From positions 50,261,632-50,325,631 of the forward strand of contig OX359246.1 in assembly GCA_947179485.1 (NCBI GenBank): a stretch of 64,000 bases of DNA, in the 5' to 3' direction. Position 1 is the first letter of the stretch; every line of letters begins with the position of its first letter. A program made the translations under genes and the position numbers. The notes beneath the pieces were generated by a model. It saw only the letters and a program-made list of their open reading frames with translations. It did not search any database and had not been told where the DNA came from. Positions 40,449 through 62,319 of this stretch are shown here, in pieces. This stretch comes from Allacma fusca. Lineage: Eukaryota; Arthropoda; Collembola; Symphypleona; Sminthuridae.

Positions 40449-41640
40449 GTGCGCTGCACTGTACAATTATTGTCGTATCAACTAAAAATATCAGACAAAG
40501 CATCTGTAATAGTTGGACCACCAGAGTCAAATCCTTCCTCTGAAAACGGAGAACCGGAGCCGAAAAAAGCAAAAGCGAATACTGGAAACATTTCACGGAT
40601 TCACCGGATGGGCAAGAGCAAAGTGCAACTATTGTAGATAATACGTAAGAAATATTTTGCATTTTGAGTAGTATCATTAGTCTACTGTCTGAGCTATGAA
40701 AACATAGTGAATGAAAATTAACGATGCCAATTAACTTTTTAATATAAAAAAATTGCGAATTGCAAACTGTGTTTGAATACAGGAGGTACAAGCGGACCAA
40801 AGGGAGAGGCAGTACTAGCAACTTTGGTTATCATCTGGCAACTAAACATCCGCAAAAGCTGCCAAAGGAAGCTACTAAGGAATTGCCCAAATGTGAAACG
40901 TCTGTACTGTTCTTGCTACAGCAACATGCAAACAATACGAAACATGAGATGTAGGAGAGTTTTGATTCCAACAAGTGTAGAGTGCGATGTTTTGCCCATA
41001 TTATAAACTTTTGTGTTCAAGATATGCTAAAATCTTTAAAATCGGAGCAACCTGAAATGTCTGACTATGTTGAATGCGATCTTCCGGTAATGGGAATATC
41101 GAAGACATTATCTCAGTTGCGAGCTCTTATGAAGAAAATACTCGAAGTACTCTGCGACACTTCGAGAAGCTCTTCACCAGCTTTGTGATAAGCTTGGTAC
41201 AAAGAAACTTGTACCTATATTTGATGTTAAGCATCGTTGGAATTCTTCGGACGAAATGATTTCTCGCGGTCAAGAACTAAAGGGGCCCTTAAATGCATTA
41301 TAGATATGTCAGAGAGAAAAGTTTGGGAAAACTTTTGATCACGGATACTCAGTGGGAAGATCTGCAAAAACTGAAGTCTATCTTAAGGAAATTCCATACA
41401 GCTACACTCAAATGCAGTCGGGATAATGCTACTCTATCGCTAATAATTCCCATGTATACTTGCCTTGTTAATCGATATGATCTGATGGATGAACAATTGG
41501 AGCAAGTTTGGCTCTTCAATTTACCAAGCAAGTTTATCATTACAGTGCTGCTTACTGTACTCTATGGCAACCCATTCTCATCAGCCCATCATCTCTCACA
41601 GCTCGTGCATGCGTACTTGACTATTTCTGGCCTTAAATAC
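40449..41640 (+). pseudogene. hAT transposase relic (BED finger and catalytic-domain pieces)
   Basis: Near 40610-40860 CNYC and CLNTGGTSGPKGRGSTSNFG with YHLATKHPQK fit a BED zinc finger. It is followed by CDVFAHIINFCVQDMLKSL (the RCxAHxxNL block), a RWNS motif near 41240, and WEDLQKLKSILRKFHTATLK. In intact elements this domain cuts hAT ends. Stops and frame changes are frequent. The C-terminal dimerisation region is missing, and the hAT element at 41715 lies just beyond. Confidence 0.75.
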
Positions 41641-41714
41641 TAATTAAAGGACTGAGCTATCCCCCAGAGTTGAATTTAGTACAATCTAAATATTCCATGA
41701 AATGTAGCATAGAC

Positions 41715-44229: not shown

Positions 44230-44305
44230 CAAAGGAAGTTGGAACTAGGCTACTTGAATCGGTACTTGAAAGTGCAAGTTCGGGTTCAAGTAAAATCCAT
44301 GCCCA
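44230..44305. repeat. Left piece of a CAAGTTC-word hAT element, target of the Polinton
   Basis: ACTTGAATCGGTACTTGAAA and GCAAGTTCGGGTTCAAGT words precede the Polinton. The same word text resumes after it at 62320-62529, where it ends in GAACTTGAGCGCAGCTCTG. The Polinton therefore inserted within this older element. The left terminus was not found. Confidence 0.65.
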
Positions 44306-44370
44306 AGTAGTGTATCTATTTAAGCCCATCCATATTAAAACGCCCCATGCTGTAGGTATAGGTGACCTTG
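44306..44370. repeat. Left terminal inverted repeat of the Polinton
   Basis: Starts AGTAGTGTATCTATTTAAGC and ends at GTGACCTTG; two differences from the right repeat. Short compared with the several-hundred-bp repeats of many Polintons. Confidence 0.93.
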
Positions 44371-44460
44371 TTTTGCTCCCGATGTGACCTCTCTGGGTAT
44401 ATGTATGATGTATATATACATGTAGATATATATACAAACATACATAGCTGTATATGGAAT

Positions 44461-45010
44461 AAAAAACAAGTGCAGTCAAAAAAACAAGTGCAGCTAAAAA
44501 AACAAGTGCAGCTAAACACAAAAAAACAAGGGCAGCAATAAAAAAAATGTTCAAGTGTGCTGTTGCGGCTGCAAAGTGTCTATGTGTAAAGAAGGTAAAC
44601 GCTAAGAATGTATACTGTCAGGTACCCTTCGGAAAGAGAAAAAAGGTTCAAGTGTGCTGTTGTGGCTGCAAAGGTTCTATGCGTGAAGAAGGTAAACGCT
44701 AAGAATGTATACTGTCAGGTACCCTTCGGGAAGAGAAAATATTTAGAAGTGTATATAAAATATAAGTGCAGCAATAAAACAAATGTTCAAGTGTGCTGTT
44801 GCGGCTACAAAGGTTTCAATGCGTAAAGAAAGTAAACGCTAAGAATGTATACTGTCAGGTACCCTTCGGAAAGAGAGAAAAAAGGTTCAAGTGTGCTGTT
44901 ATGACTGCAAAGGTTTCAATGCGTAAAGAAGGTAAACGCTAAGAATGTATACTGTTCGGAAAGAGAAAATATTTAGAAGTGCATATAAAATACAAGTGCA
45001 GCAATAAATA
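44461..45010. repeat. Subterminal tandem repeats in the Polinton left end
   Basis: First come four short AAAAACAAGTGCAGCTAA-type units (44461-44540). Then about four larger units of 100-130 bp follow, each with TTCAAGTGTGCTGTTG, GTAAACGCTAAGAATGTATA and CAGGTACCCTTCGG (near 44550, 44645, 44785 and 44887). No equivalent array is visible at the right end. It could bind element proteins or be simple expansion. Confidence 0.8.
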
Positions 45011-45331
45011 AAAAAGGTCCAAGTGTGCTGTAGAAGAAAGGAAAGTCTAACTGTAAATAAGGCAAAGTCAGAGGTTGTATGATATGAACCCTCTTGAAAA
45101 CCAAAATAATAAAAACAAAATAAGCTGCAAACGCATTCTGGTTGGTCCTTTAAGGTTAAGTGTACGATCAAAATTGGAAATATAAGTAAGGGTCCGCACT
45201 TATTGTCAAGTTGTCGAAAGCTGTTGCGTGAACTGTTGAGTCCCCAGTTTTTTTGTGGAAGTAAAAAATATTGTCACTAGTATTCAATTCTTGAGTTCAA
45301 AACTCTCTTTTATTTCGAAATTTTGAAAAAA

Positions 45332-46099
45332 ATGGCTAACAATCAAGCCGGGCAATCAAGTAGCAGGGGTGGAAATTCTATTAGAGTCCCGCTTCCCAAT
45401 GAGCTTGTGGAAGCTGTGGACGGGGTCAACGTGCTAGTGAAGAAGTTTGTTTGCATTTGCAAACAAGGATTTAATTTTCTTCGAGATCTCCGAGACCACT
45501 TTGCCCAGAACAAGGAATGTCAAATTAAACATTCGGATTCCACGCAGTGGCCTGAGAAAAACATGAGTTTTTTCCCACGAAAATTCTTGTGTAAGTGCAA
45601 TACTGCGATCTTCAAACTTGATGACTTAACCAAGCATTTCAGAGAGAAATGCCGTGAAAATATACTCAGAGAGAGTTACCTCGCTGAAAAGAGGGCACGG
45701 GCGGCGGCACTCAGAGCTTTTGAGGAGACCAAACGGAGGGAAGAAGATGAGGCCAAGCGGGAGATGCGGAAGCGTACTGCTCCAATAACAACTGTTATCG
45801 TTCCCCGTAAAAAAAGACGTAAGTGTAGCAGTAATAATTTACTTGTTTTTAAAGTTTAGCCTTACTTTTGAGAAAGTATGTGACAAATTATGTGAATAAA
45901 TTAACTGGATGAATTTTAAACGATATTATTTTATTATTTTCAGATTTGGATGGTATGGACACTGACGATGAAGAGGACCTGTGGGAAGCTGCCCGCGTTG
46001 CAGAAATAGTGGAAGAATTGGCCAAAGAACCAACCCAACCTCCCCCCACTCCAGCTCCTGCTCAGGCACTCATCCCGGAGGGTATTCATGAGGACGAAG
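45332..46099 (+). CDS. Zinc-finger protein of the Polinton, two exons
   Basis: ATG 45332 gives MANNQAGQSSS. Exon 1 ends at 45818 before GTAAGT; exon 2 begins at 45944 after TTATTATTTTCAG, and the reading phase is kept across the 125-bp intron. Exon 1 carries two similar degenerate fingers (FVCICKQGFNFLRDLRDHF...C and FLCKCNTAIFKLDDLTKHF...C), then an Arg/Glu-rich helix and the nuclear signal PRKKRRK. Exon 2 is acidic (MDTDDEEDLWEAARVAEIVE) and proline-rich, reaching a second possible donor at 46100. The protein may regulate transcription or bind element DNA, or this may be a 5' exon set spliced towards the polymerase. Not a family I can name. Confidence 0.6.
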
Positions 46100-46265
46100 G
46101 TAATTTTTTAAATGGTCTAAAAACACTGTTTACGCTTTAAAAACACTATTTGCAAAAACAATTACCGAGTGCAAATTCCAATTTGCGAAAGACTTCTCGA
46201 GTTAAATCAAGAAACATCGTCATCAAGACAATACCCCACCACAAGGTCCTTCCAAATCTTATTAG

Positions 46266-49200
46266 TGCCCTTATTGTGCGTGTTATTTATATACTATGTC
46301 CCTATGTAATGCTTATAAAAAAATTCATGAGGCTAAAAATTACAGATGCAATCAGTGTAGTATAACGTTTAGGGATAGAAAGGTTTATGATGAACATATT
46401 AAGATTCATGATATTGAAATTATTGATCAAGTAGTGAAGGATGTTGTTAACAGTAGGAATGTACATGAAAAGGTGCGCAAGAAGCGCAATGTTAAAAAGA
46501 CTAATAAATTCTCATTTAAACTGTATTCAACTAGCTCTAACATATCTATCTAACAACAACATTAAAATCATATAGAGTAGATTTGAGTAATATATCCCAT
46601 GCTACCGATATACGCGGTTTAATGCAGTCTGTTAAACTGCACTTAGTTGACCAGATTCAAAAGGATTTAAAACTTTTTACTAATATTAAAATTATCGTCC
46701 ATATAAATTGTATATTTGAAAAATTAGATAGTGAGGGTAGCGCCCAAAGAATTGTAAAATGGATGTCATCCTTACCGCATGTCATTCTCATGAAAGTAAC
46801 ATAGACACTACTATAGAATCTATTACGCAAAAATTAGTGTTAATGATAGAAGACTTTTGCGAAAATGGTTCCGGTTTAGTATTAGTTGATATCCCAATCT
46901 TTGATATGGTAATTTCTAAGTATCAACCCCTGCGGGGTGGTACATATGCAAAACTGCCGTACTTACTTCAAAGTGCAGTAGATATTAATAAGAAATGTTT
47001 ATTTGTAAATGTAAATAATAGTGCTCAAGCTTATAATGTAGAAAAATTAACAGTTAGCCAACAACACAACAAAAGTGACAGGGACTTAGACTTTTGTTTT
47101 CTTTTTTCTATAGCAGCAGGTATACGCAATCTAAGTCATGAGCAAATGCACCGGTATAGACATATTATCAGTCAGTTAGACCTTACAGGCATTCACATGC
47201 CTATGACGTTGGAGCAGGTACCTAGGTTTGAGAGACAGAACCCTTTTATTTCTGTCAACATTTTTGGGTTCAGAGACACAGGCGTAACCTCAGAACATAG
47301 GAATTTAAAAAATCTTAGTGCTAGAGAGCAAAGTATTAGGCGGCGAAAAATGATACACTCAAATATATTTCCTTTGTATATAAGCAAGACCTGCAACCAA
47401 GCAGATGTTAGGGATACTAGTAGGAAGCAGGATGCAGATAGGAAGCACAGGGTAACTATTGATAAAAGCAAGCATTACATTTTAGACTTGCTAATGATCA
47501 TACAGAATGATGAGCAGGAAGAGAACATTATAGACCCCAGTCAGTCGATCCCTTCACGAGTTGACGACAGTGTCAACGAACATTTTGTATTATGCAGAGA
47601 TCTGAATAGCTTATTCTGTAATCCGCAGATAAGAACTAGGGTTCATCTGTGCAGGTTTTGCTTACACTCATTTAGGTCAACTGACACTTTAAGCTCGCAT
47701 ATTGAAAGATGTTCTCAAATAGGGGCTCAGAAATCTATTTTCAACTCTGACCCTGAAGCTAAAATTTGTTTTTAGGCTTTTCAATATATGGTCCCAGCTC
47801 CTAATGTAATATATTTGGACTATGAGTCCAAACTTGTACCGAAAGACCCGACGACTGCAAATAGATATGGCACAGTTCCGAATCCCCATGCCTACCAATT
47901 TCAGTCAACTACTACTGCTGGGTCTAGGGAATATACAGAAGAGCACATACCATGCTCGTATTCATAAATTTGTGTTGGACCCAACGGCGAGCTCCGTCAC
48001 AAGAGCACATATCACATTCAAAGCGACGATGAGAATCTGATGGACGCATTTTTTGCGGACATAAATCCTTTCTCAGCTGCTGCAATAGATGAGATGGAGC
48101 TTCGTCAGAAGCAGGCTTCTAGTAATAGACGGTATCCACCTGATATGTCTGGGTTTAGTAGGTATGTATGTTATTTTTGCGAGGGTCTCATTAATCCTGA
48201 GGGTGAGGACGGTGAACGGGGCGTAGAGCATCATGATCATTTTACTCATATGTACCTAGGGCAAGCTCATAGCAAATGTAATATTCAGGCTAGCTGGTGT
48301 AAACAGATTCCTGTAGTGGTTCATAATCTGTGCGGTTACGATAGTCATCCTATTGTAACCAATCTAGATCATGAAACCATAGAGTCATGTAGCGTTATTC
48401 CACTCAGTTCCGAGAAATTTTTATCCATAGAAATTAATAAGAAACTAGTATTTATTGATAGTTTAAAATTTCTGAGTTGTTCATTAGATAAGCTTGCTGC
48501 AGTGTTAGGGGAGAAAGGGTCGGAAAAGTTTAGGCTTACCAAGGAGGTGTTTAGTCAGGATTATCCAAATACGCTAGACCATCAGCATCTGGTTTTTAAG
48601 AAGGGCATATTTCCTTATGAAGCCATTACTTCTTTTGCTGACTTGGAAAAAAAGGAGCTACCCCCTATAGAGGCCTTTTATTCCAAATTAAAGAATGAGC
48701 ATATTAGTCAAGCTGATTATCAGCATGCTCAGAGCGTTTGGGAAGCATTTGGGATAAAGGACATGGGTGACTACTGCAATTTTTATTATAAGTTACATGT
48801 TACCCTGTTGGCGGGTGTTTTTCAAAATTTCCGACATCTTTTCCTAACATCCTTCAACTTGGACCCGGCTCACTTTTTTAGTTTGCCAATGATAAGTTGG
48901 CAGGCTGCATTAAAGCATAGCAAGGTCGAGTTGGATTACATTAGAGATAGCGACATGCATATATTTTTAGAGGCGGCTCTTAGGGGCGGTTACGCCGGTT
49001 CTGGCTCTAAAAGATATGCGGACGCTAACAATAAGTATGTCCCGGAAACATATGACAAATCCCGAGACTGTGAATATATTATGTACTGGGATGCTAATGC
49101 GTTGTATGCAAAGGCAATGGATTCGTATCTACCCACAAAAAAATTTGCTTGGGTCTCAGAGTAGGAAGTTATGTACTCTTCCAGAGTTGAAAATATTTTG

Positions 49201-50144
49201 AACTTGCCAGATGACGGTCAGGAGGGCTACTTTTTGAGGTAGACCTTTCTGTACCTGAGGACAAGCATGAATATTTCAACGACTATCCACTGGCGCCGCG
49301 AAAACGATGCGTGGATATCAGTGAAATGGCTCTTCTCCAAGTCGAAATGCAAAGTCAGTTGAAACTAACTCATGGTTCTATGAAAGTAGGAAAGCTAGTG
49401 GCAGATTTGCACCCAAAGAATAAATATGTTGTTCATTTTAGAGCCCTTAAAAAGTATACTGAATTAGGCATGACGCTAGATAAGGTTCATAGAATTTTAA
49501 AATTTTACCAGTCAGATTGGTTAATCCTTTATTGATTTATGCACCGAGCGTAGGAAGGTAGCAACATCTGAATTTGAGAAGGATTTCTATAAATACATTT
49601 GCAACAGTTGCTTTGGAAAATCGATTGAATCAGTTAGAAATAGATATAAAGATATGATGGATGACTGCTGTTTGACTTGTCTAATTTTAAGCCTTGTAGT
49701 AGTGTAAGTGCTGAGTGGGCCCCTTTTTATGTGGAAACTAATAAAAAAGTTAGAGGTGTAATGAAGTATGTCTCTGCAGGGCATCCGATTAAGTCTTTTA
49801 GAATTTTAAAATGCAAAATGTATGCTTACTTAACATGTGATGGTATAGTTGATTAGAAAGCAAAGGTTATTCCAAAATCGTATATTAAGAATCATGTTAG
49901 TTTTAATGATTATGATAGAGCATTAATAGAGTCAGCGGAATCTACTAAAGTTAAATATAGAAAAATATCGTCTGTAGGGCATAGGTTATATAATGTAAAT
50001 TAGCAAAAACGGGGTCTAAATTCTTTTGATAATAAAAGGTATCACAGTAGTTTTAATTATAGCTTAGCGTATGGACATAAGAGTATTGTAGATTATAATA
50101 ACCTGGATGCTTTTTTAAGAACATGTGAAGATAATCCAAAATGA
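46266..50144 (+). pseudogene. polB: Protein-primed DNA polymerase B, palm motif C deleted
   Basis: A classical C2H2 finger (YRCNQCSITFRDRKVYDEHI) is followed by the N-terminal domain (YQPLRGGTYAKLPYLLQSAV, FERQNPFISVNIFGF). Next come exonuclease motifs (VIYLDYES near 47810; VVHNLCGYDSH) and a zinc/HNH-like patch (YVCYFCEG...HHDHFTH...CN). The TPR1-like region includes KGIFPYEAITSF, and palm motif A is YWDANALYAKAM near 49085. Motif B is CNSCFGKSIESV near 49600 and the thumb is LAYGHKSIVDY. Between the motif B region and YKDMMDD (about 49640-49660) roughly 90 residues, including YTDTDS motif C, are absent. Stops (for example TAG at 47773 and 49162) and several frameshifts confirm inactivity. 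It would have copied the linear element from a terminal protein. Confidence 0.92.
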
Positions 50145-50245
50145 TGTGATGTTTATGTGAAATATATAAATTATGTGCAAATAAAAACAAATACAAAATC
50201 CTATCATTTTCAATTTAATCATTCATTGTGTTTAATTGTTTCATC

Positions 50246-50896
50246 ATGGACGCACCTACATTTGACTACACTCTGCATGCGCCATTTAACTTTGTTATTT
50301 CGGGGCCTACAATGAGCGGTAAGTCGAATCTCACCAAGAGTATTATTACTCGAAGGGATGAAATCATTTTTCCGAACATAGAGCATGTCGTGGTTTGCTA
50401 TGGTATTGATCAGCCCAACGAATTTGCTTCAATGAAGCAGCAATTTCCAGAGATTCAGTTTCATCATGGATTACCAAAAGAGTATGGCGACGACATGCTA
50501 AACCCATATCTTTATATGTTAGATGACCTAATAGAGGAGGCTTCAAAGTCGAAAGATGTCATGCAAGCCTTTGTTAGAGGAAGCCATCATCGGAATTGTT
50601 CTATTATCTTCATAACGCAAAACTTTTTTCATGATGGACTTAGACCTTTAAAAACCAATTCCAAGTACATTTGTTTATTCAAAAATCCAAGGGAAACACA
50701 AGTCGTGAATAAAATTGGAATGCAAATGAACTGTGGGAAAAAGCACTCGCTCATGGAGGAAGCGTACAAGGAGTGCATTTCAGTTCCTCATGGATACCTT
50801 ATTATTGATTGGAGTCAGACACAAAACGATAATTATAGACTCAGAAGCAATGTATTTCCAGATCCGAATTGTATTGTATTTATTAATCAGAAATAA
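50246..50896 (+). CDS. Genome-packaging ATPase (A32/FtsK-HerA type)
   Basis: Intact 216-residue frame from ATG 50246. Walker A is GPTMSGKSN at residues 20-28; Walker B is LYMLDDL, with the acidic pair at 93-94. RGSHHRNCSIIFITQNFF is the sensor-like segment typical of adintovirus and Polinton ATPases, and HGYLIIDW lies near the end. The enzyme pumps DNA into capsids. Length is normal for the family. The stop TAA at 50894-50896 is embedded in an AATAAA poly(A) signal (50892-50897), and the gene converges on the zinc-ribbon gene only 17 bp away. Confidence 0.93.
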   Translation: MDAPTFDYTLHAPFNFVISGPTMSGKSNLTKSIITRRDEIIFPNIEHVVVCYGIDQPNEFASMKQQFPEIQFHHGLPKEYGDDMLNPYLYMLDDLIEEASKSKDVMQAFVRGSHHRNCSIIFITQNFFHDGLRPLKTNSKYICLFKNPRETQVVNKIGMQMNCGKKHSLMEEAYKECISVPHGYLIIDWSQTQNDNYRLRSNVFPDPNCIVFINQK

Positions 50897-50913
50897 AAGG
50901 TTGTATAAATGAT

Positions 50914-51641
50914 TCAAAAATTAATAATGTAATGCATAGCAATATCCTTGAAATCAGTCATCAGCATGGTTATGGTACTTTGATTTTGAGTTAGAGTAAT
51001 TTGACTCTCGTCACACGATTTACATCCCCAATCAATTTGAGCAAACGTAGTCTTCGTAATGTCTTGCCTATCATATTCATCCTTGCATGCGGAGCAGAAG
51101 CTTGGCAAAGGTTTGGAATAAATCTTGTCAGATCGCAAAGCGCGCTTTTGCCTGGTAGGAACATCAGTTCCCTTCATTTTTTGCATGATGCTTTTCACAA
51201 CGGCAGCGTTCTTAACGGGTGCAGCTGGTTTCCGCTTATTGTATACCAACTTCTTGTTACATCCCAGCGAGGTAACTTCAGAAGTCATGGGGGGATTCTT
51301 GTCCCAGTCAAATGTTCCACAAATATCCTGTCCAATTGAACTATCCGGTTCTCTAACAGAGTCCGCTACAACTTCTGTGAATTACAAAAATTATTTAATA
51401 CCTCAACTTAAATATTATGCATGCTTCCAAACGAGGTACGAGGGAAGGGTGGGACGATGGGTAAGGTTTGGGATTTTTTCCCCCTCCCCCTCCTTTTTCG
51501 CCAAATAGTAACGGAAGCGCGGCGGCGGCGGCGGCGGGGAGCAGGGGCGGAAGGTTATCAGTGGGGACGGGATTTTGTCCACTTACTATTAATGGTGTGT
51601 TCAATTTCCATCGCGGCCTTAACCAGCTGTGCTTGAGCCAT
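50914..51641 (-). CDS. Zinc-ribbon protein of the Polinton, two exons
   Basis: Exon 1 (51641-51587) encodes MAQAQLVKAAMEIEHTIN and ends before GTAAGT. Exon 2 (51374-50914) follows a TTTTTGTAATTCACAG acceptor. Phases match across the 212-bp intron (51375-51586), giving 171 residues. The second half has FCSACKDEYDRQDITK followed by WGCKSC, a C-x2-C...C-x2-C ribbon (near residues 111-138), and an upstream Lys/Arg-rich segment. It may be a transcription factor or nucleic-acid-binding protein; no specific family recognised. A GGC trinucleotide patch lies inside the intron. Confidence 0.7.
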
Positions 51642-51895
51642 TACTGCTGCTGCTGTTAATGTGAGAAATGTTTGAAGTTCGCACGAATGAACAATGGTTA
51701 TGGAGGTAAATCGATAGTAGGCAGTTAATGCCGATTGTCAGAAAAAAGAAAAAAATTGAGATGATTATTTGAAAAGCCATGCGGGTGAGATGTGTTCAAT
51801 GGTTGTCGCTGGAATGATTTAAGAAATGCGTCGACTGCTGTATTTATGCTCAGAATATTGTCGTTTATTATTGTTGTTGTTTTTTCTGGACAAGG

Positions 51896-52624
51896 TTAAA
51901 AATTTTCTGGAAAGTTTGGGTCGCGATTGAAACCCTTGTTTAGACGTATCCGCCCATCAACATGGGCCATACAGTCCATCAACGTATCATGAATGTCACT
52001 TATTTGACCCCGGCATGTGTTGTAGTAGTACACAAGGTTACTGATAATCTCAGGTGTCTGCTCCATCTTCCAATTAACACGCATCTTTTTCCCATTCAGA
52101 GTGGTTCGCTGAACGTTCATAAACAAACGTTGACCATCTTCAGAACGAGAGTACCATACCTTGGGGCGATTAGGATCCTTGGGATGCCCATGGAGTTTGA
52201 AATAGGGTTTACGATAAACTTCGGGTTTCGGTCGACCAAACCCCGCCTCATCATCACCACGTGCAGTCTCGTTCAATTCCTCCGGAATAGTTTCTAAGGA
52301 TGGGAACCGCTTACTTGTTGGACCGTCCAGCTGCGTTTCTTGACATTTCAACGTTGCAGCTTCCACTTCCTCATCCAATTCGTTGGTGGAGACCTTGTCC
52401 GTAGTAGTTAAGTCCATTGGAACATCATTGGCTGATGGAGTTGTTTTAACAGATATATCCGTTGGAGTATCATCGGCAGAGACCTTGCTTTGAACCGATA
52501 AATCCATTGGAGTATCAGGTTCACTGCTGCAGACCTTGCATTTAACAGACAAATCCATTACAGGTTCAGATCGAGTGAACTCACCATCAACAGCTTTGAT
52601 ACATTGGTTAATTTCAGTATCCAT
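51896..52624 (-). CDS. E1A-like 'oncoid' with LxCxE and PxDLS motifs
   Basis: From ATG 52624 an intact 242-residue frame begins MDTEINQCIK. A VMDLS sequence (residues 22-26) is followed by three 15-residue repeats carrying PMDLS (39-43), PTDIS (54-58) and PMDLT (69-73). PMDLS is an exact CtBP-binding PxDLS motif. After an acidic run (NELDEEVEAA) comes LKCQE at 92-96, an exact LxCxE retinoblastoma-binding motif. Adenovirus E1A carries the same pair, and LxCxE-bearing 'oncoids' have been described for adintoviruses. The C-terminal half (YFKLHGHPKDPNRPKVWYS, NVQRTTLNGKKMRVNWKME) is probably a folded domain I do not recognise. An upstream in-frame ATG at 52699 also exists, but a TTCAAATTTTTCAG acceptor just before 52646 suggests a spliced leader. 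Role inferred: driving host cells to S phase for DNA replication. Confidence 0.65.
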   Translation of the reverse strand: MDTEINQCIKAVDGEFTRSEPVMDLSVKCKVCSSEPDTPMDLSVQSKVSADDTPTDISVKTTPSANDVPMDLTTTDKVSTNELDEEVEAATLKCQETQLDGPTSKRFPSLETIPEELNETARGDDEAGFGRPKPEVYRKPYFKLHGHPKDPNRPKVWYSRSEDGQRLFMNVQRTTLNGKKMRVNWKMEQTPEIISNLVYYYNTCRGQISDIHDTLMDCMAHVDGRIRLNKGFNRDPNFPENF

Positions 52625-52645
52625 TTTCTTGTTGAGTTCTCTGAA

Positions 52646-53150
52646 AAATTTGAACAGCGTAAACAATAACGTAAAGGTTTTCAAGATACAGCCATGCATT
52701 TCAGCAATGATATTAATATTAGTAACAAATTTTCAACCAAAGGCATGCCTGCAGACGTTTTTGCAGGTATGCACTTACTTTAACGTTTTTCCTGGTGTAA
52801 CTGCTGTTTTAATGCGGATAATAGGAATATTGTAGTAACAAATAGTTCTTGAACTCAAATGTATGTTATGCAAGTTGAGATGTCAGAAGTTGAATGATAC
52901 AAATTGCAGGAACAAGCGCGGTATTTATGCTCCATTTTTTAGGTTCATAACCTTGGAGTCGTCAAAAAACGTTTTCAAAAAACCGTGGAACCCTCAAACA
53001 AGGGCATTCTCAAACGTTTGCACCATCCCGTTTTCCTCTGACAATCATGTTCAGATCTTTCTTCAATCATGTTAATTCTCAGCATATAGTTTTCAGGACA
53101 AATCAAACAATATAGAAACTTGTTTTTGAATCCTAACACATAATACCTTA
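52646..53150. other. Intergenic region upstream of the oncoid-like gene
   Basis: On the minus strand it contains GGAGCATAAATACCGCGCTT near 52915 (TATA-like) and a possible splice acceptor at about 52646, so it probably holds the oncoid promoter and a leader exon. No coding sequence recognised. Confidence 0.4.
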
Positions 53151-54085
53151 TTAATAATTAACCTTTGAAAGTTCTTGACTGTAAAACCCGTCTTCCATAT
53201 CTGCATTATCTTCAGGATCGGTTAAGTTATACATGCGAGGGTTTGAATTTCCTATTCTATTTACGGTAAAAACCTTTGGTTTAAATCGTTTGGAATAACC
53301 TTTCTCAAAACAATTTTTATCAATAGAAATGAGAACGCGATCGCCAACATTAAATTTGGGCTTATCATAGGATTTTAGTTCCTTATTTCCATACAGGTGG
53401 AACCACACCTCCATTTCATTTTTGGAGTTAACATTTACCGGCTTAAGTTTTATCAGCTGGAATGAACTGTGTTATTATAGTTTCGAACTAACTTTTGCAG
53501 AACATGAACAAATCTGTAGCTTCCTTTATGCTGTACATATCGACTTATTTTTTCCATAATCGTTCGATTAAATCTTTCAACGATACACGCTTTCAGTTCG
53601 GATTGAACATGAAAGATTTCAATTCCATTATTCGTGCAAAATTCTTTGAAATCTTTTTTAAATTCACCCCCTTTGTCACATTGAATTCTCTTTGGCTTTC
53701 TTCCTGAATTCTTTAATATTTTCTTGAAAACTGCTAATACATCAATGCTATTTTTTGTTTTCACTGGGTGGACAAATGCATATTTACTAAAAGCATCGAT
53801 GATGCTTAGAAGATACCTGTGATTGTTATTAAATTTAGAGTAAGCTGTTATGTCTATTAAATCAATATACCACTGCTCATCTATTCCATGAACTACAACC
53901 TGACGTCTTGTAAATTTACGTACTGCAGGCTTGTTTTCAGCATACACCGGAATACCACTTAGAATTCTTTGAATTGTGGATCTACATTCACCACCTTTAT
54001 AATGTTTCATAAACGTGTCCAAACCTGAAAAACTACCCCTGAATTTCGGGTTCAAATACAGACGCTTAATTTTTGCATCCGACAT
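53151..54085 (-). pseudogene. Polinton integrase (retroviral-type, rve), one frameshift
   Basis: ATG 54085 opens a 210-codon frame with the catalytic triad of the RNase H fold: WYIDLID (Asp75), IQCDKGGEF (Asp137) and CIVERFNRT (Glu170). One frame change at about 53455-53465, just after NNTVHSS, leads into the C-terminal part (53414-53151). That part holds the chromo/SH3-like segment KPKFNVGDRVLISIDKNCFE with GYSKRFKPKVFTVNRIG and a typical FYSQELSKV ending. The enzyme would join the element's AG ends to host DNA and create the 6-bp duplication. A single shift late in the protein suggests recent decay. Confidence 0.93.
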
Positions 54086-54206
54086 TGTGCACTGACGTTG
54101 TACAAATATAGTTTATAATAATTGTACACTGGCTTATGTAAGTCAGATAATGCAGAGAGCTGTATTAGTTCACATGTATTGTGTTTAACGTGCACAAAAA
54201 TAAAGC
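54086..54206. promoter_or_regulatory. Divergent promoter region between integrase and pX-like gene
   Basis: About 120 bp separate the divergent start codons at 54085 (minus) and 54207 (plus). TATAGTTTATAATAATTG near 54106-54123 could serve as TATA elements in either direction. Inferred from layout only. Confidence 0.4.
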
Positions 54207-54341
54207 ATGAAGCGGTTACTTAAACACCGAGCATTTTTATTGACAAAAAAACGTAAAGTTCTTCAGCGTGGTGGAGGTTTCTTCATACCTATTCTAGCTT
54301 CTTTAGCAACAACGTTACTGTCAAACGTGCTCGCGAATTAA
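54207..54341 (+). CDS. Adenovirus pX/mu-like small basic-hydrophobic protein
   Basis: A 44-codon frame too short for most gene finders. It starts MKRLLKHRAFLLTKKRK, continues with a glycine-flanked arginine (LQRGGGFF) and ends in a hydrophobic helix (PILASLATTLLSNVLAN). A basic N-terminus followed by a GG-F-hydrophobic tail is the design of pX-like core peptides in Polintons and adintoviruses, which condense DNA or help disrupt membranes. It sits 5 nt before the ATG of the next core gene. Confidence 0.65.
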   Translation: MKRLLKHRAFLLTKKRKVLQRGGGFFIPILASLATTLLSNVLAN

Positions 54342-54346
54342 TTAAC

Positions 54347-56012
54347 ATGGCTAAGCGAATGAAGCTTATTCCAGAATCACTGTACAATGTGCTAATGTCC
54401 AAAACTAACGATAGTAACATCTCATCAAAGATATTAAATTCACGTAAGCTTACCAACGATGTAAAACAAGCTTTATATGGCAAATATGCTAGACAGATGA
54501 GACATAGAAAGCATCATGACGATAATCAGCCTTTGCTTGTTAAATTGATTAACCAGCAATGGAATATGATGCAGTCACCTCTTCAAAAATATAATTTCAA
54601 TGCAACGAGATATCAAGACAATCCAATTACTAGTATCGTTCCTTATGATAAACCACAGAGTAGTAGTAGTAGGCAAAATACCTACCACAAACCATATTAT
54701 TCGAATAGTTATGTCGATGATTCTGAGAGTGAAGATGATGCTGATTATCGGTCTAATACTAACGATCACCCACTGAATTTAATGGAGGTGTTTCTCAAAG
54801 CAATGAGAACATGGATGTTGAAGTTTCCAAAAACATGAGAATGCGTAAAGCTTCCCGGATATCATAGAAGGTTATTACGAAACCTTAGCAAGAACACAAC
54901 GTAAGAGACACGATAATGGTAAGGCAGGACCAAAACGAAAACGTGTATTAATTCGACTTCCAGATGACACAACTAAGTCCCTCCTTTCAAAAGTTATGGC
55001 TAAGGAAAATAATGATGAATCTATTAATTTGTCAAACCGTATCAAGCTAATTCCCAAATGGGAAGAAACTGACAAAATCAAGCATAAGAACAATAATCCC
55101 CCAGCAGAGCGTCTTAAATACATTCCAAATTTACCGAGAAGGTCTAAACGAAAGGTTCGCCATGATGATGATAATGATACTTTAGCTGTGAAACGGTTTA
55201 AAAATATTCCACAATTATTAGGGTCTGCAAGGACTAAACGCAAACGTTACCCCATGAAACGTATTAAACCAAAGCTAGTGGATTTTACAAAACCTAAAAT
55301 AATAGATTCTAAAAATACCAAACGCAAAGCATCCTATGACATCGATTATGATGAAGATGAAGCTTCAACTTCAAAACGTTTCAAGAACATTCCGAAATTA
55401 TTAGGGTCTTCAAAGACTAAACGCAAACGTTTCCCTGTGAAACGTATCAAACCAAAACTAGTGGATTTTACAAAATTTAAAATAGTGGATTCTACAAATA
55501 CTCAAATTGGGGATTCTAGAAATACTAAACGAAGAGCATCCTATGACATCGATTATGATGACGATAAAGCCTCAACTTCGAAACGTATCAAGTCCATTCC
55601 GAAACTATTAGGGTCTTCAAAGACTAAACGCAAACGTTTCCCAATGAAACGCATCAAACCGAAGCTAGTGGATTTCACAAAAACTAAATTAGCGGATTCT
55701 ACAAAAACTCAAACTGCGGATTCTAGAAATACCAAACGCAAAGCTTCCTATGATATCGATTATGATGACGATGAAGCTTCAACTTCAAAACGTTTCAAGC
55801 CCATCCCGAAATTATTAGGAACCTCAAAGACTAAACGCAAACGTTACCCTATGAGACGCGTCAAACCAAAACTAGTGGATTTTACAAAAACTGAAATGAT
55901 GGATACTACAAATACTCAACTACTGGACTCTAGAAATACTAAGCGCAAAAATTTCGATGATAATGATTATGATGATGAAACTCCGCCGGTTAACGTTTCA
56001 AATTCAACCTAG
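54347..56012 (+). pseudogene. Repeat-rich core protein, frame broken between 54.8 and 54.9 kb
   Basis: The first frame (54347-54838) starts MAKRMKLIPESLYNVLM and includes KLTNDVKQALYGKYARQM, resembling the N-terminus of a conserved Polinton protein of the type M..RM.LIPE. After two single-base frame changes (about 54785 and 54845-54865) a long frame continues to 56012. It contains four tandem units of 60-70 residues with KRFKNIPKLLG, TKRKRFP.KRIKPKLVDFTK and KRKASYDIDYDDDEASTS. Each unit alternates strongly basic and strongly acidic text. It probably acts in the virion core or scaffold; the repeat expansion looks lineage-specific. AATAAA follows at 56018. Confidence 0.7.
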
Positions 56013-56186
56013 TGGGAAATAAAGGTTATGCCAAGGATGATATGTCAGTACCCAACAGGACGAGAAATTATATGCCTAGACAATGCAAATCAAAAAATAT
56101 CAAATATGGTAAAGGAATCATACGCAGAATATTATCCAGATGGAAAAATTTTGATTAACAAGATTTATTCATTTTTTCAAACTTCG

Positions 56187-56693
56187 TTACATTCTGAATA
56201 ATTGTCTTATTACAGCAATATCTTTTAATAAATATTGCCTTGATGCAATAAAATATGACACGTACTTGTCATTACGAGTAAAATTATTTGTAAATTCACA
56301 ATAAATCTTCGTGGGATTACATCGCTGTAGACGTTTGTACAAAAAATACAATACATAATTCCCGCAAACAATCGACCCCCAATTCTGCAGCTGTTTAATA
56401 TTTTCTCTCACCCAAACCTTGCATCGCTTAGCAAAGATTTTGAAATCTTTCGAGTAGTGGCTTAGGCCAAACCCATACGAATCGAAAAACTCCAAGCAAC
56501 TGGTTTTACTCTCCTTGTAGAACGCCAGCCAATGATCACCAGGTTTTGTACTAGGTTCTGAATTAACCACTAGACATAGTGGAAATCTATCAAGCTTCAC
56601 ATATTTCAATTCATCGCATGATATTACATCAAAATGAGCATTTCTAGTTTTACATATTACATTAAGATAATTATAAACTTGATCGGTATTCAT
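56187..56693 (-). CDS. Adenain-like maturation cysteine protease
   Basis: Intact 168-residue frame from ATG 56693. The catalytic set is His54 (PGDHWLAFY), Asp71 (LEFFDSYG), Gln103 in QLQNWGS and Cys110 (VCGNYVLYFL), the standard order of the adenovirus protease and Polinton PRO. It would cleave capsid and core precursors. The length is somewhat short but includes all motifs. Its ATG overlaps the stop of the capsid gene as ATGA, so both may be read from one transcript by reinitiation. No frame damage is seen. Confidence 0.93.
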   Translation of the reverse strand: MNTDQVYNYLNVICKTRNAHFDVISCDELKYVKLDRFPLCLVVNSEPSTKPGDHWLAFYKESKTSCLEFFDSYGFGLSHYSKDFKIFAKRCKVWVRENIKQLQNWGSIVCGNYVLYFLYKRLQRCNPTKIYCEFTNNFTRNDKYVSYFIASRQYLLKDIAVIRQLFRM

Positions 56694-58023
56694 CCCTGCA
56701 TGGCTTCATGGGAGTAATCAGTAAAGTACACAGATTTATTTTTGTCAATGCTCAAAATGCTCTGGGACTCTGTATAACAAAGAATCGTTAAAGGGGTTGT
56801 TGTGGCAGTTCTAAACCGGAGCTCAATCTTGATATTTCCAAATCTGGGCAGGGCACGTGCGTCACTAATCGGGGCAATCTCATATACATAGAGTGCGCGG
56901 TTGTTTATAAAATCGCTGACGCTAAATTCAATACTCGCATCCTTATTATCAATTCCAATTGCTCTGTAAAGATTGCTAACAGCTTCTTGAACTCGAATAC
57001 TATCTTCTCTAAAGTCCAAATCCAAAGGATAAGCCTTGTTTGTATCACCATTAACTGATACATTTGTGAGATAAATCACGGCTGCCGAAAAGGAATGGAT
57101 TAGTTATTCCGGTGCCATTTATATTTGCACTGCGTACAATAGCGAGCACAAGTCGTTCGGGTAACTGAACACCTTTGAAAACACCCTCTTCAATTCTTGA
57201 TAAGGTACCAGTGGGCAATGAAATACTTTTTACATCCACTTTGTTTAATTACAGATTTGCAACATCACCTCCTTCCCATTGCCTTATGTGCTCAATTGCT
57301 GCAGCCGCCAGCAAGTTTGTGTCTCGTAACTTGTAGCTTTGCTTCCAAAATGCTTAGTCTGTATCGAGGTGTGGGTACTCCTGCAACTGTACTTGCTGGA
57401 CAATGAAGCGCGAAACCATCCGTGGATCGATGAAATACAATTTTTAAATCAACTCCAGGTGGTAAAAAATCTGGTTGGGCAAATAGATCCACATGAAGCC
57501 GGCCAATAACTTCAAAAATCTTACTACCCTTACTCATTTCAAATCGTGATTTATAAGATCCACCCGCCAAAACGTTAGTTGATTCAGGATCGTTGTTTTT
57601 AAAATATCCAGCACATTGTGATTGAGTTTCATTGTACTCCTTGCAAAATAACAACAGTCTTTCGAACATGCATCTATAGGCATAGTAAGGATGTGTGGGT
57701 GTAATCAATGTTTCATTCAAGTACACAGAGCACTGTGAAAAAATTGAATGAAGAATATTTTTAACGGGTGCTACTACAGTTGCAGCACCGTTTGCAGCCA
57801 TTTTATCATCTAATATCCGCAGTCGTAAATATAGCCTGGTTTTACTAGGCTCAATATAATGGGCGTCAGTACTATTAACAATAAAAGTTAGTGGAACTGC
57901 AGTTTCAGATAATGGACAATTAGGATAAACATCACATGATTGTGTAGTTAGAATGCTCATGTCGTACCCCTCACGTTTAAAAATGTCCAGTTCACTTCGT
58001 AGATAATGATGATCTGCAGCCAT
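56690..58023 (-). pseudogene. Major capsid protein (double jelly-roll), damaged
   Basis: ATG 58023 begins MAADHHYLRSELDIF. The first 243 codons contain VPLTFIVNSTDAHYIEPSKT, RLYLRLRILD and YLNETLITPTHPYYAYRCMF, the pattern of the 'F54H12.2-like' capsid proteins of Polintons. Later pieces carry SISLPTGTLSRI, QLPERLVLAIVRS and NPFLFGSRDL, then VSVNGDTNKAYPLDLDF and IKIELRFRTATTTPLTILCY. Damage: a frame change near 57290, TAA at 57249-57251, and a frame change between 57051 and 57079. The protein would form hexon-like trimers of the icosahedral shell. Its start overlaps the upstream core gene by 32 nt. Confidence 0.9.
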
Positions 58024-58561
58024 GATTATGAAAAGATGTTTCGACTGTTTTCACGCTTTCTTTTATTTTTTTCCGCTTCTGCACGCGTAGTTTCAAGAGC
58101 CCACGACCAGTCTTACGCCTTTTAGTTTTTTTCTTGATTCCACGACCGATTTTTGAACTCCGTTTAATTTTCTTATAATTGAATAGCCGATCTTCATCAA
58201 GCTTTCGTTTCCGACTAAACCCAGATCCCGACTGATTGATAATATCATTTCCTACTCCTTTAAGTGCAGTGAGCCCTCTGTCTCGCAACGCCTCACTTAA
58301 GGGGCGACCTCCGTCCAAAACATCCATTGCAACATTTCTTAAAGCTGTTTTTGCATGTGGGAAGATATACTTTGCAGCAAAAGGTATTAATCGCCTGGCA
58401 ATAGACCCAAAAAATGATTCTAACCCACTGCCTTTTTGGCGAATGTTCGATCCGCGATAAAACAGTAATCCACGCCCGTATTGAACTCCGCTCCCATATT
58501 GTGGTCTATGAATCCTGTAAAACTTACTCTCCTTATCTGAACACTTATATCTCTTAGTCAT
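57992..58561 (-). CDS. pVI/core-like virion protein
   Basis: Intact 189-residue frame from ATG 58561 (MTKRYKCSDKE). Gly-rich N-terminal half (RPQYGSGVQYGRGLLFYRGS), an amphipathic middle (LESFFGSIARRLIPFAAKYI, then DRGLTALKGVGNDIINQSGS) and a very basic C-terminus (IKKKTKRRKTGRGLL). This composition matches the minor core proteins lying between penton and capsid genes of adintoviruses and Polintons, comparable with adenovirus pVI/pVII. The 3' end overlaps the capsid start in another frame. Confidence 0.75.
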   Translation of the reverse strand: MTKRYKCSDKESKFYRIHRPQYGSGVQYGRGLLFYRGSNIRQKGSGLESFFGSIARRLIPFAAKYIFPHAKTALRNVAMDVLDGGRPLSEALRDRGLTALKGVGNDIINQSGSGFSRKRKLDEDRLFNYKKIKRSSKIGRGIKKKTKRRKTGRGLLKLRVQKRKKIKESVKTVETSFHNHGCRSSLSTK

Positions 58562-58648
58562 TATTAATTTTTTGTGTTATTGTTGTTTCATCAATCGCGT
58601 TAGCTTCGCTGTTCCCGAAAATGCAGTGTGCACTTAAAGTCACCAACT

Positions 58649-60085
58649 TCAAATGGGGGGCGGTTCTCCCGATTCATTCATTATATACACATGTATGCTA
58701 TCAATTGAATGTGATTTTAATGGGAGATATGTTAGATTTTGAAATTCATGTTCAAACGTACAACCGTTATTATACTTGAGAGGCATGCTTTTTAAAAGCG
58801 GAGCATATGCATCTCCAACAAGTTGGTTTACTATAGGGTCACAGTATACAAATAGAAGATCGTTTGCAAAGTCCTTGTAGAACCTGTGACGCGCTCTAAA
58901 TCTTGTAAATGGGGTTGATTGGAGATTACGTGAGCCCGTATTCCCTCCCTGAAATCCCAAGTAATACTCCACTAACGAGGAAAAGTTATAGTTATTCAAT
59001 TTTGAGTTTTTTTTGTACTCTATAATCATTCTACCGGATTTTATCTGCCACTCAAACCGAAGTACTTCACTTAATGTAGCCATCATTTGTTGAAATGAAG
59101 TATGGTCATATCCAGCCGTAATAACATCCTTAGAATCGGGTTTAGAGATGGCGATTTCATCGTCCTTAAATAGATAGATCTTCCTATGGTCCCCGTACGT
59201 ATGTACCCACTGTTTTTCTTTGTCATTATAAAAATGCAAAGTGTCATACGGATAGTTATCAAATCCCAGGTTCATATACAATCGTCTGTAAATTGTTACT
59301 GCTACAACTTCATCTTTGGATGCATTTGTAAGATAGCTAAGAACGTTGTAGTCTCTGCCTAACAGGCTCACTACTTTGTCTTTATACGATAAAGATTTTG
59401 TAAGGTTCTTTCTGGATGATACCATGTAGAAATTTGGAGATTCCCACACAAAATCGATTGTTTAAACTTTTCTTCTTACTTCTACACGAAACATCTTCTG
59501 TGATGGCGCAAACAGGATTGGTATTTTTATTATATTATGCGAACCAGTGCGAGTTTTTATGTCATTGTCCAAAATTGCTGGTGCCGCGATCGGGTCCATT
59601 TCATACATACCATCCTGAATCCTGAAAACATTCTTTAATCGATCAGCCAGTTCGAAATCATAAATCAATTTTTGATTGCCGCTTTCCTTTGTGATTTCCA
59701 TGTAAGATGCCGCATTCAGCTTATATAAATCTCTTGTTATACCGGATAAATATTCACAAAACATATGTTCCGCTGAAAAGATTGAAGGCGCGAATATCTT
59801 ACACTTTAATGTGTCTCCTTCGATCCATTTAACAGGGCTCAGATCCAGTAAAGAGGTTGATATTAAGTCTGATTCTGAACATTAGATTGATGCAGTGCCC
59901 AACTCCTCACCCTCTCTAATAAATACATCCGTAGATGTGTATGTACATGAAGATAGCGCAACCTCGTATTCTCGAGAGTCCAACTCAAGTCTTGTAGCTA
60001 ACTTGTTTCGAAAATTAGTTATAGTGTTTTCAGGGTAATAATTATAAGATGCATCGCTAAGCAAGGTAACTGTGAATCCCGCCAT
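58649..60085 (-). pseudogene. Penton (minor capsid) protein with two in-frame stops
   Basis: A single frame of 479 codons runs from ATG 60085 to 58649 with no frameshift, interrupted only by TAA at 59882-59884 and TAA at 59462-59464. The N-terminus (FTVTLLSDASYNYYPENTIT, NFRNKLATRLELDSREYEVA) is the typical penton start, with strand pattern YPENTxxNFxxxL...YEVAL. The C-terminal part has ANDLLFVYCDPIVNQLVGDA and LPLKSHSIDSIHVYIMNESG, the family's characteristic last jelly-roll strands. The protein would occupy the fivefold vertices. Loss by point nonsense alone suggests recent inactivation. Confidence 0.85.
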
Positions 60086-60197
60086 GATGACATTGCATGA
60101 TTGAATGAATGATTAATACAACATCATAATATTTATATACAAGAGAGAAATTATGTTTTTATTATCATTTATCTATTTTTTTGTTTTTTACAATTGT

Positions 60198-61754
60198 TTA
60201 AAAAACAATGTCATGCTGAGATTCTGTTGAAAAAACACGTGATTCTTCCAATTGACGATCCGCATCTTTCTTCATACAGCAAGAGGGAAGGCACCATGGA
60301 CGTTTGAAAGCTTCATTTACATTAACAGATCCAAACCCGCCGCAGTAAACACAAAACGCCGTGCCTCCACCCTGTGCAACGTAATACAGCTCCGCCATTG
60401 AGTATTCTTCACCTATTAACCCATCACCATCATCATTATCATTGTAACAATCCCAATGTGTTTTCAACGAATTTATACGATAAGCCAAATCCATTGCTGC
60501 TGGAAATTTTGGTAAGTCTGTGATTGCTGTTTCTTTCGGCGTATCAAGATGATTCACCAGGTAGAACGACATATGGTTTTGGTACGCTGAGAAAGAAATA
60601 GCTGGATCATAGGGTAGTACGGTTTGCAAGCCTTTAATTCTAGCTGCCCACATAGACATCAAATATTCAAATTCTTCGCAATTGCACAGAAACGTTGGAT
60701 GGTATTTACTTGGAAACTGTAGGCACTCATGCTCCATCATTATCTCCGCTATTTGACCCATCAGGTCATAAACAAAACGCTTTCGGGACCAATAACACCT
60801 TGCTAGCTCTTCATGTTTCTTGTTAATCCTCAAATCACAGGTTTTCTTAATACGATTGTAAGCCTGTCGGGGAGCCTTCTTTTCTGCAACTGTGTCTTCA
60901 ATCTTAGAATGAAATGTTGGTAAGATTCCCTCCTGCAACATGTCTTGCCGTTCAAGTTCTTTTTCAGGGTCTACAAGACGATTCTTCAGTGCACAAGTAG
61001 GTAGACACCATGGTCGTTTGTTAGGACTGTGATTTCTAAATGAGCCATAACCCCCGCAATAAACACAGTATGCAGTACCCCCAGGTTGTGCCACGTAATA
61101 TATTTGGGACATATCTCTGCCTTTACGATCGGTGTAGGGCTTTCCATTATAGTAATGATTATCATTCCAGTTAGCACTAAATTATTTTAACCGATAAACA
61201 AAATCCATTGCTCTCGGAAATTTTGGAAGTTCATTTACTAGTAATTGTTTAGCTGGAGAAATATGATTCAGTAGAAACTGTGGAAACATATTGCGATAGT
61301 TACCATAGTTGCGGGATTTGTCCTTGTGCATTCTGAACCAATGAACTTTGATTCTCCAATTTCGTCTTAGAAACTCGAATTCTTTACAGTTGCAGAGTAG
61401 CGACGGTTGTAGTTGGTTGAACGGTTGTTGTCATACGTGGTAGAACATTATCGTTGCCAAATACAGAATATATTCATGTAGATACCGTTTTTGTAACCAA
61501 TATTGTTTTGCCTCAGATGCAAGTTCGGGATCAATCTTCATATCCAAATTTTCCTTCACACCAGAGATTTGTTTAGGGGCTTCTCGTAAGTCGTCTTGTT
61601 TTTATTCCCCATGAGACGTATTGGATGGGCCAATGTCTTCATCGTCCTCGATAAATACTGTTTCAATCCGAGGAAATTTTGTTGGAGATGGGTCCCCCAA
61701 CGGTAGCTCAATTACATCAGGGGATGTAGGTGAGTTTTCAAAAGTGACAGACAT
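60198..61754 (-). pseudogene. Duplicated zinc-module protein of the Polinton, three in-frame stops
   Basis: One frame of 519 codons runs from ATG 61754 to 60198 without frameshift, with stops at 61602-61604 (TAA), 61431-61433 (TGA) and 61182-61184 (TAA). Two copies of a region of about 190 residues follow each other. Each has an Arg/Tyr helix (YWLQKRYLHEYI / YWSRKRFVYDLM), LLCNCKEFEFL / FLCNCEEFEYL and ELPKFPRAMDFVYR / DLPKFPAAMDLAYR. Each copy is closed by a zinc-like module, YYVAQ.GGTA.CVYCGG.GS then KRPWCLP.C. The last uninterrupted frame is 61112-60198. A TATATATA box lies about 110 nt upstream of the ATG (near 61865). I do not recognise the family. Confidence 0.65.
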
Positions 61755-62248
61755 TTTGAAACAAAATTTCCAAAAAAAAACAAAACTTGTTTTATTTGGA
61801 GCAGTAGTAGCACGGAGAGAATTGAGGAGCGAATGATGGACTACTCCAGCAAAAACAAACCCCATATATATAGGGGGAAACAAATTGTTTTTTGTTTTTT
61901 TCATTTACCACTTACCGCTTTTTGAACGATCTTATTCAACCTGTAAACGTTTTCTATCAAGGTTAACAAGTTTCGAACCATGTATTTCTATTTCTATTTC
62001 AACGCATTAACTACTCTGCCACACGATGTGGCATTAGTTACAATGTGTTTAATCGCTGATATATACATAACTGTCATAAATTCTCAAGATAGACAGCTGT
62101 ACTTGTAAATATTCTGTTTCCAAAGGACCCGCCACTTATTCAAACTCTTTATACATCATATATAGTGACGTACTTATATTATATATACTATTACATATAT
62201 ATATATTAACCTTGGGGGTATTGAGGTCATGACCTAAAAAAACATTAC
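61755..62248. promoter_or_regulatory. Right end of the Polinton: promoter and AT-rich spacer
   Basis: Reading inward on the minus strand, TATATATGGG near 61865 is a plausible TATA box for the duplicated zinc-module gene. The rest to the inverted repeat is AT-rich with TATATA runs (62155-62210) and no coding sequence. Confidence 0.5.
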
Positions 62249-62313
62249 CAAGGTCGCCTATACCTACAGCATGGGGCGTTTTAACATGGATGGGCTTAAA
62301 TAGATACACTACT
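62249..62313. repeat. Right terminal inverted repeat of the Polinton
   Basis: Inverse of 44306-44370 with two mismatches; ends GATACACTACT and is followed by the target duplication TGCCCA. Confidence 0.93.
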
Positions 62314-62319
62314 TGCCCA

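Follow-up and report, generated by a model that had tools for sequence, protein, structure and literature searches.

The window analysed here, a 64,000-nucleotide stretch of the genome of the springtail Allacma fusca (contig OX359246.1), holds an 18,008-bp Polinton whose accessory gene (51896..52699, minus strand) encodes a protein in which a conserved N-terminal helix and a conserved C-terminal domain flank a largely disordered linker. In families F1–F4 of this gene the linker carries two to four motifs of the type bound by the corepressor CtBP. By analogy with known proteins, and at a probability of roughly two in three, we read this as an accessory protein whose tandem motifs, 10–12 residues apart, would dock CtBP in the manner of EBNA3A or RAI2 and not of adenovirus E1A. 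The evidence that carries this reading is that, within a fast-evolving linker, the aligned D-L-S triads of the two shared motifs (two triads) differ between the representatives of F1–F4 by five synonymous and no nonsynonymous changes. The original prediction had correctly recognised a Polinton from an invertebrate source, and had proposed an E1A-like pairing of a CtBP motif with a motif for the retinoblastoma protein (Rb); the first half of that proposal is strengthened by our analysis and the second is not.

The accessory gene and its families

A search of the A. fusca genome returned 107 matches, covered by 103 loci (L049-L054, larger stretches around six loci, were not counted), which were assigned to six families, F1–F6, by best match. 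Loci were called intact when they had at least 93% of the length of the family representative, an aligned start methionine and a stop; full-length frames were intact by this definition at 83 of the 103 loci and encoded 46 distinct proteins. Intact copies accounted for 17 of 20 loci in F1 (the family of the window copy), 12 of 13 in F2, 6 of 11 in F3, 23 of 24 in F4, 24 of 34 in F5, and the single locus of F6, and the 20 broken loci were excluded from motif counts. F1 is a recent family, its 17 intact copies comprising only four distinct proteins. In one stretch compared per family, the gene sits between the integrase and the ATPase in all six families.

The minus-strand frame 51896..52624 is open and intact, as originally described, but its conserved start lies 25 codons farther upstream, at ATG 52699 (stop at 51896-51898). 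The protein thus has 267 residues and not 242, because residues 1-25 show a ratio of nonsynonymous to synonymous differences (pN/pS) of 0.05 across the F1–F4 representatives, a sign of purifying selection. This N-terminal extension is recognisable in all six families, and it is hydrophobic with a conserved cysteine. Given the selection on it, the inner ATG at 52624 was set aside as the sole start of the gene, although it may start a second isoform, both ATGs being possibly in use; it is at this inner ATG that the F6 homologue begins in its database record.

Six pairwise comparisons of the F1–F4 representatives divide the protein by its ratio of nonsynonymous to synonymous substitution rates (dN/dS). 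The N-terminal helix (residues 1-41; 52577..52699, minus strand) has a dN/dS of 0.03-0.07, with residues 2-37 helical in a low-confidence model; the linker (residues 42-161; 52217..52576, minus strand) evolves fast, at 0.49-0.96, and is modelled mostly without secondary structure (predicted local distance difference test score, pLDDT, below 50), with one low-confidence helix at 106-120; and the C-terminal domain (residues 162-267; 51899..52216, minus strand), at 0.06-0.13, is predicted as beta-beta-beta-alpha in a weak model (mean pLDDT 57). The AlphaFold models are weak throughout, with mean pLDDT of 41.8 and 57.1. Pfam and NCBIfam scans assigned the window protein to no family, its two conserved domains being without a Pfam match, and the Pfam matches of other family members were sub-threshold and mutually unrelated (best 0.0074). 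Foldseek found no match at E<=0.001 among viral models and none in the PDB either, and a sequence search of solved structures returned two and four matches, weak and unrelated. A likeness noticed by eye between TSKRFPSLET and the open reading frame (ORF) at 61602-61904 was dropped; the stretch is not kept in F2–F4.

CtBP-type motifs under selection

The exact PMDLS and LKCQE reported at residues 39-43 and 92-96 of the 242-residue frame are both present (64-68 and 117-121 of the 267 residues), as are PTDIS, PMDLT and the acidic residues ahead of LKCQE. The motifs listed are therefore real, but the list omitted VMDLS, one of the two sites that turn out to be conserved. This first motif (residues 47-51; 52547..52561, minus strand) has a D-L-S that is unchanged at the amino-acid level in the F1–F4 representatives, and the second, PMDLS (residues 64-68; 52496..52510, minus strand), lies 12 residues past it within an MDLSV that is invariant in the same representatives. 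Motif 3, PTDIS (residues 79-83; 52451..52465, minus strand), does occur in the window copy but is private to it, 16 of the 17 intact F1 copies reading PTDLS; motif 4, PMDLT (residues 94-98; 52406..52420, minus strand), is replaced by SMDLS, LIDLS and LIDLP in the representatives of F2, F3 and F4, respectively.

Every intact copy of F1–F4 and F6 (59 of 59) carries one or more [PVAS]xDL[ST] motifs. The F1 set comprises VMDLS, PMDLS, PTDLS (PTDIS in the window copy) and PMDLT, and the F2 set VMDLS, AMDLS, PTDLS and SMDLS, while F3 has AMDLS and PMDLS, F4 has VLDLS and SMDLS, and the single motif of F6 is a PMDLS aligned with site 2. Where representatives of F1–F4 have both sites 1 and 2, these are 10-12 residues apart, in a part of the low-confidence model that has no secondary structure. 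The F5 proteins, both terminal domains of which are kept, have no xDLS/T motif in any of their 24 intact copies.

Selection was counted on representatives L002 (F1, which shares both sites with the window copy), L009, L019 and L016. Against the 0 nonsynonymous and 5 synonymous changes of the D-L-S triads, the rest of the linker (74 ungapped columns) showed 129.5 nonsynonymous and 57.5 synonymous changes (Fisher p 0.003); the whole xMDLSV hexamers, whose first two positions vary, showed 4.5 and 7.5 (p 0.022). Pooled pairwise counts are not independent; the parsimony-like count is the more trustworthy. When six-codon windows of the linker were ranked by pN, the 12 lowest of 45 all overlapped the two motifs, and 9 of the 19 invariant linker columns fell in the 12 motif columns (86 ungapped columns in total). 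A dN/dS test had been proposed as a way to see whether the motif region is unconstrained; the linker is nearly so, yet the D-L-S triads within it changed silently only. Alignment of homologues shows the D-L-S sites kept in F1–F4 but not the LxCxE.

In F1–F4 the motifs are also more numerous than composition would give. Shuffled linkers reached the observed motif count in 0, 0, 21 and 35 of 20,000 trials for F1, F2, F3 and F4, and three [PVAS]xDL[ST] motifs in none of 20,000 when the linker of the window copy was shuffled. The pattern is absent from the 19 other ORFs or ORF pieces of the element that were examined (3,869 residues). That chance is an unlikely source, as originally argued, holds for the xDLS motifs of F1–F4 but not for LxCxE, which shuffling of the F1 linker produces in 425 of 20,000 trials.

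Several observations weigh against this docking reading. No homologue was found outside A. fusca in searches that covered annotated or collected sequence: a database search with a single sequence confirmed 0 of 138 candidates at E<=10; a profile search at E<=1 gave one match among 1,734 candidates, itself from A. fusca and identical, letter for letter, to residues 28-197 of the F6 protein (L047); and in viral_contigs none of 25 pattern matches was confirmed. The selection test is built on four family representatives and six D-L-S codons, and the single F6 motif was reached in 501 of 20,000 shuffles of the F6 linker. The AMDLS is absent in 1 of 12 intact F2 copies, and SMDLS has become SMDVS in 1 of 23 intact F4 copies. 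At several sites V, A or S stands in place of the consensus P at the head of the motif, a departure for which there is precedent. Finally, F5 has no motifs, whether lost or never had, and yet keeps the gene, whose core role therefore does not depend on docking.

The same F5 copies (24 of 24 intact) show that the protein core needs neither of the two motifs originally paired, since they keep the gene and its C-terminal domain and have neither, a pattern that the original prediction had named in advance as telling against it. In a tree of integrase and ATPase, F5 and F6 group together, apart from F1–F4. Because this tree is unrooted, loss in F5 cannot be told from never having had the motif; the simplest history, given the PMDLS at the aligned place in F6, would have one ancestral motif, lost in F5 and multiplied in F1–F4, although the motif may instead have been gained in parallel. 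One F5 copy (L038, C9:17092000-17094200) joins the end of the integrase and the accessory gene in a single open frame of 371 residues that has no accessory N-terminus, perhaps through a deletion.

Proposed function and alternatives

The idea of multiplied CtBP-docking sites is supported by the selection evidence across four families and by a conserved host CtBP exon (L112), in which 82 of 97 aligned residues are identical to CtBP1 of 3ga0. We hypothesize that the tandem motifs would bind host CtBP at several places at once, as the two-site proteins EBNA3A and RAI2 do. Multivalent binding might then cross-link and disable the corepressor and favour expression of the integrated element, or the motifs might recruit CtBP to nucleic acid that the C-terminal domain would bind. 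The more specific proposal of a multivalent trap, in which xDLS motifs multiplied in the linker would cross-link the corepressor in the way of RAI2 and release the element from silencing, follows from the same analogy and is less likely than not.

It is unlikely, to our reading, that the MDLSV repeats instead dock a partner other than CtBP (a host or element protein) and that the protein acts chiefly in replication or in the virion, binding nucleic acid through its C-terminal domain. The conserved D-L-S-V, followed at site 1 by K or Q and then K, closely resembles the established CtBP motif, and extracts of one report (PMC2883600) give both VLDLS and ALDLS as binders of CtBP. Because the AlphaFold models are weak, a nucleic-acid-binding C-terminal domain is no more than a lead; fold matches with PUR-alpha, PC4 and whirly were below the level that the tool regards as meaningful, and unrelated chains (a WNK1 domain at 4.5, ribosomal proteins near 4) scored similarly.

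Adenovirus E1A carries a conserved LxCxE Rb-binding motif. A dual oncoprotein of the E1A kind, whose linker would bind both Rb (LxCxE) and CtBP (PxDLS) and so drive S phase for replication of the element, is very improbable here. The match in question, LKCQE (residues 117-121; 52337..52351, minus strand), is confined to F1, where it stands together with the CtBP motif in 17 of 17 intact copies and, in the window copy, is preceded by acidic residues, and adintoviruses, which are relatives of Polintons, are said in extracts of PMC10812802 to have genes like the Rb-interacting proteins of small tumour viruses. However, LxCxE is found in 0 of 66 intact copies of F2–F6, whose representatives read ANCRD or ENCRD (F2), KFRE or KCRE (F3) and TQYRD (F4) at its place, and among the broken loci only in the aligned frames of two, both F1. 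Its four ungapped columns (6 nonsynonymous and 4 synonymous changes) evolve no differently from the remaining linker (Fisher p 0.51), and F1 copies are too alike (four distinct proteins among 17) for a selection test within the family. Its frequency among shuffles, given above, also counts against this reading, as does its presence in another ORF of the same element.

That ORF, at 57292-58050 in the presumed structural gene region, has a further match (LFCKE), a reminder of the chance rate.

Being restricted to F1, unconstrained in its columns and prone to arise by chance, the Rb half of the proposal is left without support beyond one young lineage, and the LxCxE is probably a lineage-specific, accidental match. 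The E1A pairing was rejected on the family-wide LxCxE count. The E1A family was also absent among the Pfam matches (E<=1) of 14 members, and the protein is therefore not an E1A, since LxCxE is not conserved and E1A homology is not seen.

Repeat expansion in a non-functional linker that merely comes to resemble CtBP motifs would accord with the high dN/dS of the linker, repeat numbers that differ between families and the ease with which the F6 motif arises in shuffles, but is hardly credible given the silent-only changes of the D-L-S triads, the rarity of the F1–F4 motif counts among shuffles and the lack of the motif in the other ORFs and pieces examined.

The Polinton and its other genes

Polintons (Mavericks) are defined by terminal inverted repeats with AG ends and a 6-bp target-site duplication. 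The element in the window (44306..62313) has AG ends, both of which read AGTAGTGTATCTATT inwards, and is flanked by the duplication TGCCCA at 44300-44305 and 62314-62319. Its terminal inverted repeats lie at 44306..44370 (left, plus strand) and 62249..62313 (right, minus strand), the arms 44304-44370 and 62249-62315 being 97% complementary. The presence of a type B polymerase and an integrase identifies it as a Polinton. The DNA polymerase B region (46741..49856, plus strand) has an interrupted frame, in which piece 47968-49161 matches PF03175 (3e-10) and pieces 46741-47772 and 49665-49853, with no polymerase match, are placed by position only. The integrase (53151..54112, minus strand), which adjoins the accessory gene, is in two frames, with rve (PF00665, 1.6e-13) on 53453-54112, and its parts share one frame in the F1–F6 stretches compared. 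With the integrase in two frames and the polymerase in several, the window insertion looks decayed, the accessory gene still being intact.

The presumed packaging ATPase (50219..50896, plus strand) matches Pox_A32 (5.9e-4) and Adeno_IVa2, both below the Pfam cut-off. Between it and the accessory gene lies a cysteine-containing ORF (50914..51381, minus strand) that is found in the F1–F5 stretches and not in that of F6. An adenovirus-type protease is represented by a Peptidase_C5 match (5.6e-3) below the Pfam cut-off, and for the presumed structural ORFs, among which a double jelly-roll major capsid protein would be sought, sequence-only Pfam scans gave no convincing match. The lysine/arginine-rich ORF 54849-56012, in which four tandem repeats recur at intervals of 183, 207 and 207 nt, may encode a protein of the virion core or one that condenses DNA; it has matches in the F1 and F3 stretches, a partial one in F4 and none in the F2, F5 and F6 stretches. 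A Cys-rich module (CVYCGGxGS ... RPWCLPxC) occurs twice in ORF 60198-61181, which has no Pfam family above the cut-off. About 1.5 kb left of the element, a minisatellite (41639-42778) of about 20 copies of a 42-bp unit is open in several frames on both strands.

Implications and comparison with known systems

Many Polintons are thought to be viruses, and to our knowledge the effects of their accessory genes on the animal host are poorly understood. What the analysis adds is an invertebrate Polinton with an accessory protein predicted to dock a corepressor, together with a measure of selection on the docking motif; no paper in the library searched combined polinton with CtBP. A docking motif marked by silent versus coding change points to a concrete and testable host target, CtBP, and corrects a tempting analogy with E1A. 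This single genome supplies a ready-made test series of 83 intact natural copies that differ in motif number from none to four; with no motif in F5, one in F6 and two to four in F1–F4, the loss and multiplication of corepressor docking would, if the reading is true, be traceable within one genome.

The springtail protein resembles E1A, which extracts of PMC2883600 link to CtBP, in its PxDLS-type motif and, in F1, an LxCxE match, and differs from it in an LxCxE that is unconserved in the family, several xDLS copies, two conserved domains and no Pfam E1A match. A Polinton that carries LxCxE would be nothing new in kind, because adintovirus genes resembling Rb interactors and motif-defined Oncoids are already described. 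No paper in the library searched combined adintovirus with LXCXE. The Oncoid class of adintoviruses is said, in extracts of a later preprint (PMC11071296), to be defined solely by short motifs. Like Oncoids (extracts of PMC10812802 and PMC11071296), the protein is a Polinton-related accessory protein recognised by short linear motifs, but Oncoids are likened there to Rb-interacting and antiapoptotic proteins, whereas the selected motif here is of the CtBP type.

For PMDLS itself there is arthropod precedent, since in Drosophila Knirps it recruits CtBP (extracts of PMC9890238), although Knirps and Snail are host transcription factors; in p300, altering PMDLS abolishes binding to CtBPs, as extracts of PMC7053340 describe. 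Closer parallels are found among two-site proteins. In EBNA3A of Epstein-Barr virus, ALDLS and VLDLS synergise (extracts of PMC2883600), and the springtail protein resembles this viral protein in having two non-consensus xDLS sites, with VLDLS in F4 and AMDLS in F2 and F3; the virus is unrelated, and the likeness drawn is one of motifs.

According to extracts of PMC11187106, the two ALDLS motifs of human RAI2 are separated by 21 residues, and after removal of 11 linker residues the protein still binds CtBP and forms foci; RAI2-like motifs are said to occur in many organisms, pathogenic viruses included. RAI2 polymerises CtBP into filaments and relieves repression, and the springtail protein is likened to it in its motifs and their spacing. 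As those extracts present it, RAI2 is a host protein without folded domain structure, unlike the protein of this mobile element, whose motifs lie between two conserved domains. As in RAI2, however, two xDLS motifs stand in a disordered stretch, and the 10-12 residues between them compare with 21 in RAI2, or 10 (by subtraction) in its shortened form.
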